Positions 14,992-18,688 of a stretch of 64,000 nucleotides of DNA are shown piece after piece (position 1 is the stretch's first letter; each line of letters starts with the position of its first letter). The stretch is from an uncultured Pseudomonadota bacterium (GTDB taxonomy: Bacteria; Pseudomonadota; Gammaproteobacteria; Steroidobacterales; Steroidobacteraceae). A program made the translations under genes and the position numbers. The DNA is taken from positions 62,001 through 126,000 of the forward strand of contig CAISEB010000018.1 in assembly GCA_903884235.1 (NCBI GenBank), read 5' to 3'. The notes below the pieces were generated by a model. It made no database searches, was not told where the DNA came from, and saw only the letters and a list, made by a program, of their open reading frames with translations.

Positions 14992-16647
14992 TCACGCGTA
15001 CTCGTCGACGAGGCTAAGTGCCTGTCTCTGCTCGGACTTCGTCGAGACCTCATCGCTCGCGCCCGAATCGGCCTTTCGCGCGACTGTGTCGTTCTGTGAC
15101 TCCTGTCTCATCTGCTGCTGCACCGTGGCCTCGCCGAGCGTCAGCCCAGCCTGCGCAAACCCATCGCGAAGCTGCGGGAGCGCATGCTCGAGCGCGCTGC
15201 GCGTCTCCGAGTGCGCGGCTCCGAACGTCAAATTGATGACCTTTGCATCGAGATGGATGTGCACCTCGATCTGGCCGAGGTGCTCCGGTGACAGGCGCAG
15301 CGTCGCCGATTCGACCTTCTGGTGACCAAGCATCACGAGCTCGGCGGCGACGGCCTTCGGCCAATGCGGGGCTGCGACATCAACCGGAATGGACCGGACC
15401 TCGACAGGCGCGGCGCGATCCGGGGCCGCGGCACCAAGCGCTGCGACGCCCGCGAGGTCGACGCTCGGCCGGACGCCGGACGATGGGTCGGTCTTGGCCA
15501 GCCCTGCATCCGGCACGGTCGCCGAGGCGCGATCGGATGTGGGACCCGGGGTTAGATCGGCGATCGGGGATCCCAGGTCCTTCAGTCCGAGTGATCCGGA
15601 CATGGCGACGGGAGCCGCCTGCGCGCTTGCCGGGGCCGGCGCGCCAGGGGTCGTCCCCGTTGTCTCGTCGGCCCCGCTGTCGCCAGAGCCGGCGCCGTCG
15701 GCAACCGCGCGTGCATGGGCGGACACGATCGCCTGCATCGGCGTGCGAGAGCGCCCGGCGGGCACGGGCGGAGCGACGGAGTTGCCAGGGAGGCCGAGCG
15801 ACAGGCCAGCATCGGCACCCGTCGGTGCTGGCGGGATCGCGAGCGCAATTACCGGAGGCGGAACCGGCAGATCCGCGCCGGTCGTTGCCGCGGCGGCCGG
15901 CAATGCCGGGTTGGCCGTGCGGCGGGTCACGCCACCACGGGCAGTTGGACCCGCCGCCGACGCAGGCCCTTCGTGGTCATCCGGGAACACCGGTGTCGGT
16001 GGGAGTGCGGGCATCGCGCCGAGGAGCTCCGGCGCGGCGATCGCCGCGGAAGCGGGTCCTTGCACGGTCCCTGGATTGGGCGCGGGGGCGGTTGCAGCCG
16101 CCGCCGCGCGCTGCGGCGACCTGGTGGGCGTGGCGGGCATCACCTTCGGCACGACCGCAGCGTGATCCGGCGTGTCGGTCGTGACCTTGAGCCACGGCGG
16201 GGCACCGAACACGGCGAGCGCCGGGGTTGCCGTTGCGCGACGCGGTTGCGGCATGGGCGTCTCGTCCACCGTCGTCGGTGGCGACGCGGGGCCGGTCGTC
16301 GCGAGCCCCGTGCGCGGCCGCAGCCAGGACGGCGGCGTAAACAGGCTGCGGTCGGGCTCGACCAGCTGCGCCTGCACCGGGACGGGCTGCGCGGTGTCGG
16401 CGATGGCGGGCACAGGCGACTCTCCTGGCGATGCGCCCGGAACCGCGACCTGCCCTGCTCGAACGGCCGCAAGTGCCTGCGCGAACCGCACGACCTCCTC
16501 GGCAACCGGACCCGTCGGGCCGGCGGCACCGAATAGCGTCGTCTCGATGCCCGTCACGCCGACGGTGGTGCCGGACGTTGTCCCGACGGCTCCGCTGGGC
16601 GATGTGGCGACCGCGCCGGGAGCTGCGGCCTGTGTTGGGCGAATCAT
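14992..16647 (-). CDS. fliK: Flagellar hook-length control protein FliK
   Basis: A 551-residue protein rich in Ala, Pro and Gly, as expected for the secreted molecular ruler. The conserved C-terminal Flg_hook domain (about residues 420-520) contains VESATLRLSPEHLGQIEVHI and LRDGFAQAGLTLGEATV. The Gln-rich end VQQQMRQESQ is also typical. The long central region is low-complexity and not alignable. FliK measures the hook and makes FlhB switch specificity. Its ATG overlaps the fliJ stop by 4 bases, so it closes the operon that begins with the sigma54 activator. Confidence 0.9.
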   Translation of the reverse strand: MIRPTQAAAPGAVATSPSGAVGTTSGTTVGVTGIETTLFGAAGPTGPVAEEVVRFAQALAAVRAGQVAVPGASPGESPVPAIADTAQPVPVQAQLVEPDRSLFTPPSWLRPRTGLATTGPASPPTTVDETPMPQPRRATATPALAVFGAPPWLKVTTDTPDHAAVVPKVMPATPTRSPQRAAAAATAPAPNPGTVQGPASAAIAAPELLGAMPALPPTPVFPDDHEGPASAAGPTARGGVTRRTANPALPAAAATTGADLPVPPPVIALAIPPAPTGADAGLSLGLPGNSVAPPVPAGRSRTPMQAIVSAHARAVADGAGSGDSGADETTGTTPGAPAPASAQAAPVAMSGSLGLKDLGSPIADLTPGPTSDRASATVPDAGLAKTDPSSGVRPSVDLAGVAALGAAAPDRAAPVEVRSIPVDVAAPHWPKAVAAELVMLGHQKVESATLRLSPEHLGQIEVHIHLDAKVINLTFGAAHSETRSALEHALPQLRDGFAQAGLTLGEATVQQQMRQESQNDTVARKADSGASDEVSTKSEQRQALSLVDEYA

Positions 16648-17081
16648 CGCTGCACGCTCTGCTGGGCGGCCCGTTCGTCCATCTCGTGCTGGGTTCGACG
16701 CGCCTCGCGCAACCCTTCCTCGAGGCGTACGCGCTCAACGACCTTCGCGACCACCTTCTTGCGGGTCGCCGCCTCGCTCCAGCCCTGACGCTCCTCGTTC
16801 AGTCGCTCGCGCAGGTCGCCCAGCTGGCCCTCCTGGGCACGGACTGCATCATCGAGTGACGAGATGAACAGCCGACTCTCCCGCAGGCTGCGCATCTCGG
16901 CACCGGATGTGGCGCGCTCGTGGAATGCCTGTTCGTACTCGTGCCGGAACCGGATCAGGTCATCGAGGCGCCGTCCGGCCTCGCTCAGGCGGCGCTCCGC
17001 CTCCACAAGGCGCGTCGCACGATCGCGCTCGGTCTGTTCGGCGAGATTGACCAGGGGTCGCAGGCGGTTTTCGCGTTTCAC
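16644..17081 (-). CDS. fliJ: Flagellar export chaperone FliJ
   Basis: A 145-residue, highly charged helical coiled-coil protein. FliJ sits in the centre of the FliI hexamer and links the ATPase to FlhA. Visible features are the N-terminal basic residues, the helix around ERDRATRLVEAERRL and a long second helix ending in EMDERAAQQS. I start at GTG 17081 (MKRENRLR) because AAGGA lies 9 bases upstream and the small paralogue upstream begins the same way. A TTG at 17147 in the same frame is less likely. It overlaps fliK by 4 bases. Confidence 0.88.
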   Translation of the reverse strand: MKRENRLRPLVNLAEQTERDRATRLVEAERRLSEAGRRLDDLIRFRHEYEQAFHERATSGAEMRSLRESRLFISSLDDAVRAQEGQLGDLRERLNEERQGWSEAATRKKVVAKVVERVRLEEGLREARRTQHEMDERAAQQSVQR

Positions 17082-17124
17082 TTCGTAGGGTCCTTGAATG
17101 CTCGAATCCGGGCGGGGCTGGCCT

Positions 17125-17310
17125 CTACGGCCTTGGTACGGGATCAATCGCCGGCAGGCGGTCGAGTTCGCGGCGCATTCGCAGCAGCTCCTCGAGATGG
17201 TGCAGCGCCTCGTTCAGGCGCCGCTCGGCCTGCATCAGCCGGGACGTTCGGTCGCGCTCCGCCTGAGCGGCAGTCGGGTCCAGGGAGCGAATGTGATATT
17301 GACGTTTCAC
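17125..17310 (-). CDS. Mini-FliJ: duplicated N-terminal half of FliJ
   Basis: A 61-residue open frame between fliI and fliJ. It aligns without gaps to the first 51 residues of the adjacent FliJ with 25 identities counted by hand. The shared core includes QxERDR, RL, AERRLxEA and LxxLLRMR-type heptads. It then ends in a Pro-rich tail (LPAIDPVPRP). The GTG start at 17310 has AGGATGG about 6 bases upstream, and the frame differs from that of fliJ, so it is a separate gene rather than a 5' extension. It looks like a tandem partial duplication kept as a short coiled coil. It might bind FliI or FliH, or modulate FliJ. Function is inferred only. Confidence 0.72.
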   Translation of the reverse strand: MKRQYHIRSLDPTAAQAERDRTSRLMQAERRLNEALHHLEELLRMRRELDRLPAIDPVPRP

Positions 17311-17323
17311 GAGGATCCATCCT

Positions 17324-18688
17324 TCAGGGTGAAATTCCGGGGGCGGCCAGGATCGACTGCAGCTGGGCGATGCTGTCGGCGAACGTCACGCGCTCGTGCA
17401 TGTCCTGACGCAGGTAACCTTCGATCAGCGGCCAGCGGCCGATGGCCTCGTCGATGCGCGGATCGCTGCCGCGCTGGTAGGCGCCGATCGAAATGAGGTC
17501 ACGATTGTGCTCGTAGAGCGCGGAGTGCTGACGCAGTCGTCGGGCAAGCGCGCGGTGCTCGGGGGAGGCGACGTCGTGCATGACGCGGCTGACGGAAGCC
17601 TCGACGTCGATCGCCGGGTACCGGCCGCCGTCGGCGATCCGCCGCGACAGGACGATATGCCCGTCGAGGATCGCGCGCGCCGAGTCGACGATCGGGTCGT
17701 TCTGGTCGTCGCCCTCCGCGAGCACCGTGTAGAACGCCGTGATGGAGCCCCGGCCGGTAGTGCCGTTGCCGGCGCGCTCGACGAGCTGCGGCAGGCGGGC
17801 AAAGACCGAGGGAGGATAGCCCTTGGTGGCCGGCGCCTCGCCGATCGCAAGTCCGATCTCGCGCTGGGCCTGCGCGAACCGCGTCAGCGAGTCCATGATG
17901 AGCAGCACGCTGAGGCCCTGGTCGCGGAAGTACTCTGCGATCGCCGTCGCGAGCCAGGCGCCGTGCAGGCGCATCAGCGGCGGATGGTCGGCCGGGGTCG
18001 CAACCACGACCGCCCGCGCAAGGCCCTCCTGTCCCAGGGTCTGCTCGATGAATTCCTTCACCTCGCGGCCACGTTCGCCGATCAGGCCGACGACGATGAC
18101 GTCCGCGCCGGTGTAGCGCGCCATCATTCCCAGCAGAACGCTCTTGCCGACGCCGCTGCCCGCGAAAAGCCCGATGCGCTGGCCACGACCGACCGTCAGG
18201 AGCCCGTTGATGGCCCGCACGCCGACGTCGAGCGGCTCACTGATGCGCATCCGGCCGAGTGGGTTGATCGGCGTGCCGGTGAGCCGCACGCGTGACTCGA
18301 CCGCGATCGGGCCACGACCATCGAGCGGCTGGCAGGCGCCGTCGACGACGCGACCCAGCAGGCCGGGCCCGACGCCCACGAGTCCAGCGCCCGGCAGAGG
18401 GACCACCCGGGCATACGGCTTCACTCCGTGAATGTCACCGGTCGGCATCAGGTAGAGGCGCTCGCCGGCGAAGCCGACGACTTCCGCGTCCGTGCGCGTG
18501 TCGTCGGCGGTGACGATCTCGCAGTGATCCCCGACCGCCGCTTGACAACCCGATGCCTCGAGCGTCAGGCCGACCATCCGCGTGAGGCGCCCGGCGACGC
18601 TGGGCGGCGGCAGCGCCTCGACGCGGCTCGTCCCTTGCTGTAGGGAATTCAGCAGTCGACGCTGCAATTCTTGGCGTTCTGAGTTCAT
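17324..18688 (-). CDS. fliI: Flagellum-specific ATPase FliI
   Basis: A 454-residue F1-beta-like ATPase that energises flagellar export. Walker A is [11 protein letters not shown], Walker B is [21 protein letters not shown], and the segment [21 protein letters not shown] is typical of the family. I start at MNSERQELQ (18688), which overlaps the fliH stop by 4 bases. A further upstream extension in the same frame is Arg-rich readthrough of fliH DNA. FliI works with FliH as inhibitor and FliJ as central stalk. The stop is 13 bases before the mini-fliJ GTG. Confidence 0.95.

Follow-up and report, generated by a model that had tools for sequence, protein, structure and literature searches.

FliJ is described as sitting in the centre of the ring formed by the flagellar export ATPase FliI, where it promotes assembly of the ring and its ATPase activity (PMC9114704, PMC3665681). 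Its tip, residues 38–83, reportedly protrudes from the ring, and the conserved Salmonella residues 38, 42, 45, 49, 72, 76, 79 and 83 are described as reaching out to contact the FlhA linker, with Phe72 and Leu76 termed critical for this binding (PMC9114704). Another group, however, describes Phe72 and Leu76 as stabilizing the coiled coil without touching the gate (PMC7584215). How the place of FliJ in the FliI ring relates to the opening of the FlhA gate is, in our reading of the field, an open question. Among the open-licence papers listed by full-text searches for a truncated, duplicated, second or half FliJ, no title or abstract start describes a mini-FliJ, in agreement with the original prediction, which knew of no described mini-FliJ.

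The window, a stretch of 64,000 nucleotides, carries on its minus strand a flagellar operon (by Pfam matches) in the order fliF, fliG, fliH, fliI, mini-FliJ, fliJ, fliK, fliL, fliM, fliN, fliO and fliP. The export ATPase gene fliI (17324..18688, minus strand; PF00006 and PF18269; start codon provisional) is followed by the mini-FliJ gene (17125..17310, minus strand), comprising 61 codons from GTG to TAG, of which codons 1–51 are homologous to fliJ codons 1–51 and codons 52–61 form a poorly conserved tail. Next come an intact fliJ (16644..17081, minus strand; 145 codons and a stop, GTG start at 17081) and, directly 3′ of it, fliK (14992..16647, minus strand; PF02120), so that mini-FliJ occupies the position between fliI and fliK expected of a fliJ gene. 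It starts 13 nt past the fliI stop and has AGGATGG directly 5′ of its GTG; a ribosome-binding-like AAGGA (17320..17324, minus strand) ends 9 nt ahead of the GTG and shares one base with the fliI stop codon, the last one. The corresponding AAGGA of fliJ (17091..17095, minus strand) likewise ends 9 nt ahead of its start. No promoter or terminator was found by consensus in the gap, and a plasmid collection gave no match.

One of the 14 other genomes of the genus, designated G006, has a mini-FliJ in the same place (L072:908-1090). The fliJ GTG lies 229 nt downstream of that of mini-FliJ in the window, placing the two genes in different frames, which confirms for the window the originally described 61-residue frame with its own GTG and AGGATGG outside the fliJ frame. 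In G006 this distance is 231 nt and the two genes share one frame with a stop between them; the frame difference is thus not conserved.

The mini-FliJ product aligns to FliJ residues 1–51 without gaps, with identity at 25 of 51 residues and 98 of 153 bases. Its local score of 120 stands far above 5000 shuffles (mean 31.0, sd 5.2, maximum 58), which bears out the gapless alignment and the 25 identities first noted by the earlier reader. Both minis are matched by a hidden Markov model (HMM) of 81 family FliJs (the window's and 80 others) and also by one built from the 80 without the window FliJ. Curated FliJ models at E ≤ 1 returned neither PF02050 nor any NCBIfam match on mini-FliJ, while the product of the neighbouring fliJ matches both (PF02050 with E 3.9e-17, TIGR02473 above cut-off) and aligns gaplessly with 3ajw, the solved Salmonella FliJ. 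A single weak PHROGs match of mini-FliJ to a membrane protein family (E 0.0077) was taken as chance, and four weak Pfam matches, all below cut-off, as composition. Duplication of a unit running from fliI into fliJ was considered as the source of the tail and spacer and rejected: local alignments of these segments to the fliI 3′ end did not score above shuffled sequences (p 0.59 for the window, 0.45 for G006).

Within the family, fliI matches were obtained in 143 genomes and junctions were fetched in 110, of which two contain mini-FliJ and one (L090) is unreadable at a contig end; the gene is absent from all 107 other readable junctions. The first set of 30 loci gave two junctions with mini-FliJ, 27 with fliJ straight after fliI and one cut by a contig end; for these 27 the verdict came from frame length, motif and visual reading, and for the remaining 80 from an HMM that does detect both minis. 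Regions L040–L045 contributed little, as the junctions were already contained in L002 and later loci. A single FliJ match was found in 80/80 of the latter. In 79 of them the start of the fliJ frame falls within −41 to +90 nt of the fliI stop, leaving little room for a 61-codon gene, and the sole long gap, 303 nt in G195 (L152), holds no FliJ-like frame by HMM search. The ends of that gap look, by eye, like inverted repeats.

No third copy emerged from searches with an alignment of the two minis, run at E ≤ 0.01 on 217 genomes of the family and at E ≤ 0.001 on 396 order, 369 class and 398 phylum genomes, in sets that overlap; these searches are less sensitive outside the family, where absence means the absence of a close copy. 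Two matches per genome, mini-FliJ and fliJ, occur only in the window genome and G006, the latter being included in the family and order sets, and every other matching genome has one; 16 of the 23 single matches in the family search lie in frames of 104–193 codons, a length in keeping with FliJ. A contig scan restricted to two peptide patterns matched a single genome, again G006, reported through its FliJ.

In a tree of 25 chosen proteins, including 7 of the 11 extracted FliJs of genus g10 and 14 of the 80 FliJs from HMM-judged junctions, the two minis are sisters (100/99) and form a group with the FliJs of their own genomes (100/99), without a settled branching order within it. Three genus g10 FliJs stand next to the group (98/95); the midpoint root serves for drawing only. 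Given this arrangement, the copying of part of fliJ most likely predates the split of the window species and G006 and postdates their split from those g10 lineages. The alignment, the G006 ortholog and the tree together support the proposal that mini-FliJ is a half-copy of FliJ retaining the first coiled-coil helix and lacking the second.

The surrounding flagellar genes have a distribution of their own. In its C-terminal part (17324-17725) the window FliI shares 93% identity with the FliI of G006, 73–83% with that of 13 of the 14 matched genus g10 genomes (50% with the remaining one, G170) and 63–65% with that of all five further same-genus genomes in which this part is present; the cluster of flagellar genes may have undergone exchange or differential retention. 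Genus g1, with 15 genomes including the window's, has a fliI match in 7/15 and a FliJ match in 7/15, and flagella look patchy there.

The G006 mini-FliJ also has 61 codons and a GTG start and aligns to the window copy without gaps, with identity at 32 of 61 residues and 122 of 183 bases; the arrangement of AAGGA, 9 nt and GTG is common to all four genes, mini-FliJ and fliJ in both genomes. For this single pair, with dS near 1, the Nei–Gojobori method gave a dN/dS of 0.31 overall, 0.24 in residues 1–51 and 0.83 in the tail, the last from few sites, and the bootstrap 95% range of pN/pS is 0.32–0.70. For fliJ of the same two genomes dN/dS is 0.17, and mini-FliJ evolves faster (dN 0.32 versus 0.17). 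Mini-FliJ thus looks to be under purifying selection. Retention of the frame in one of the 14 other genus genomes and the dN/dS, albeit from one pair, were among the points on which the original prediction proposed to be judged, and both came out in its favour. Judged from sequence comparison, mini-FliJ is a real, selected and narrowly spread partial FliJ paralog, and we consider it very probable that it is translated, still yielding a 61-residue protein on which selection acts.

Other reading frames over the gene were compared as well. On the opposite strand, frame 0 is open in the window and in G006; antisense frame 2 is open in the window alone. Between the two genomes, four of the other five frames show 21–23 identities over 60–61 residues, and antisense frame 1, with three stops in each genome, shows 32/60; these observations were treated as chance plus an echo of codon positions.

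Structure prediction gave two long helices for FliJ, 3–58 and 63–144 (model from a two-sequence alignment). For mini-FliJ it gave one helix, 12–51, with loose ends (model from four sequences; block pLDDT 86–98), so that the 61-residue chain does not form the antiparallel two-helix hairpin of FliJ. Residue numbers were carried over from 3ajw through the gapless alignment, in which the published residues are matched correctly at a chain offset of 3. Among the 81 family FliJs, position 45 is aromatic in 81/81, 49 is Tyr in 81/81, 72 is Phe in 81/81 and 76 is Leu in 80/81. Both minis have an aliphatic residue in place of the aromatic one at 45 (Met or Ile) and at 49 (Leu), and both end before position 72, lacking Phe72, Leu76 and the whole of 72–83; of the FlhA-facing residues, Leu42 is kept. 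Positions 25, 28, 32, 35, 39 and 42, by comparison, do not differ among the two minis and the FliJs of their genomes. With these core positions unchanged, 45 and 49 altered and 72 missing, the helix with its core seems to have been preserved by selection, and the tip given up. The full FliJs of the window and G006 themselves have Phe45, versus Tyr in 78 of the 81 aligned FliJs.

With the published tip, 38–83, described as protruding from the ring, the rest of helix 1, which mini-FliJ keeps, should lie in or near the FliI ring. Mini-FliJ could enter this ring; a lone helix 1 presumably cannot be a full stalk. We hypothesize that the 5′ third of fliJ was copied before the window species and G006 parted and became a second gene, whose product would be the first helix of FliJ without the loop and the return helix. 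This product would most likely work inside the export ATPase complex, pairing with the second helix of FliJ, with another mini-FliJ or with the FliI pore. There it could tune the assembly of the ring or its ATPase coupling; having lost the tip that faces FlhA, it would not engage the FlhA linker. The contrary reading of Phe72 and Leu76 in PMC7584215 weakens this argument from the lost tip. FliI itself bears no clear sign of a new contact: its last 300 residues have four unique changes in the window/G006 pair, and three control pairs have 0, 7 and 0 (12 of 29 sequences). In our view mini-FliJ probably acts at the FliH–FliI–FliJ ATPase and not as an FlhA competitor. The whole chain, from the copied 5′ third of fliJ to a selected protein working in the export ATPase complex by this mechanism, is put forward tentatively, as somewhat less than an even bet. 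As a naturally occurring, selected fragment in which the N-terminal helix is retained without the tip that faces FlhA, it would offer a ready-made separation of the place of FliJ in the ring from gate opening. We further speculate, and consider it unlikely, that the central stalk of the FliI ring is two-chained or exchangeable, the tipless mini-FliJ replacing one FliJ helix or FliJ itself. This would create a state with ATP hydrolysis uncoupled from activation of the FlhA gate, a natural switch in the export motor.

An unlikely alternative places mini-FliJ among the chaperone-handling components, as a helix that, like FliJ, binds FlgN or a similar chaperone, thereby altering how hook–filament junction subunits are supplied. 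FlgN is encoded in the same genome as the window, and FliJ binds FlgN in a way that is not abolished by deleting residues 13–24 (PMC7955116). The same deletion, which falls in helix 1, made FlgN binding in Salmonella tighter rather than weaker, and the statements on this binding taken from PMC7955116 name no FlgN site on FliJ.

Competition at the export gate was the second role suggested originally: mini-FliJ would bind FlhA instead of FliJ, as a decoy, and slow export. Findings from Salmonella lend this some appeal, in that export in cells without FliH and FliI is inhibited by a non-functional GST-FliJ, which binds FlhA, and FliJ(Δ13–24) binds FlhA poorly, so that helix 1 contributes to this contact (PMC7955116); mini-FliJ keeps residues 13–24. 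Phe72 and Leu76, moreover, perhaps make no direct FlhA contacts (PMC7584215). Nevertheless, mini-FliJ lacks the loop and these two residues, elsewhere called critical for the FlhA linker, and its positions 45 (Met or Ile) and 49 (Leu) have both ceased to be aromatic. With the tip missing a decoy role is less likely, and we regard it as very improbable; the proposed competition with FliJ for FlhA is disfavoured and is the weaker half of the earlier interpretation.

Mini-FliJ might also serve as a leader cistron, its translation bringing ribosomes across from fliI to fliJ, with no importance attached to the peptide. The fliJ frame starts at −4 in 49 of the 80 HMM-judged family junctions, a 4-nt overlap with the fliI stop, and it is mini-FliJ that now adjoins fliI, starting 13 nt after it with a matching ribosome-binding site. 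However, the amino-acid sequence of mini-FliJ is constrained, unlike that of a pure coupling frame, and fliJ retains an AAGGA site of its own; we rate this explanation as very unlikely.

Highly improbable, in our estimate, is a decaying duplication scar, that is, a functionless partial copy of fliJ still open by chance. Such a scar would fit with the long branch to both minis (1.0 change per column), with the little-constrained tail and with the occurrence in two genomes only. In neutral simulations started from the window mini-FliJ, moreover, 30% of 5000 runs were still open at matched base identity, so that openness alone says little. Against this, an open frame together with at least 32/61 identity, as observed, arose in 0.58% of the 5000 runs, and at the dS distance 16% of runs were open with a best identity of 24/61. 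At a dS near 1, the equal length without gaps, the same start codon and the same ribosome-binding-site spacing of the two copies also argue against decay, as does the dN/dS of 0.24 in residues 1–51. Were mini-FliJ inert after all, it would still clearly exemplify how part of a gene can be copied and then retained for a while. An assembly error is an unlikely cause because the second, diverged genome, G006, has the gene too.

Compared with known systems, the selected paralog is closest to FliJ itself (PF02050, TIGR02473), the central stalk of the flagellar export ATPase, with which it has in common residues 1–51, the helix-1 core, the ribosome-binding-site spacing and the place in the operon. 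It differs from FliJ in having 61 residues instead of 145 and in lacking the loop, the second helix, Phe72, Leu76 and the aromatic residues at 45 and 49. The SctO family of injectisomes (YscO, InvI, CdsO and EscO) provides another parallel, being coiled-coil stalk proteins whose gene, like that of mini-FliJ, follows the ATPase gene (PMC3500872, PMC7584215). This likeness is drawn from published descriptions; SctO proteins have two helices, whereas mini-FliJ has one predicted helix and is encoded beside a complete FliJ. HP0256 of Helicobacter pylori is FliJ-like with a different role and was found through its likeness to the FliJ N-terminal coiled coil, but with 142 residues it is not a shortened copy, unlike mini-FliJ (PMC2864241).
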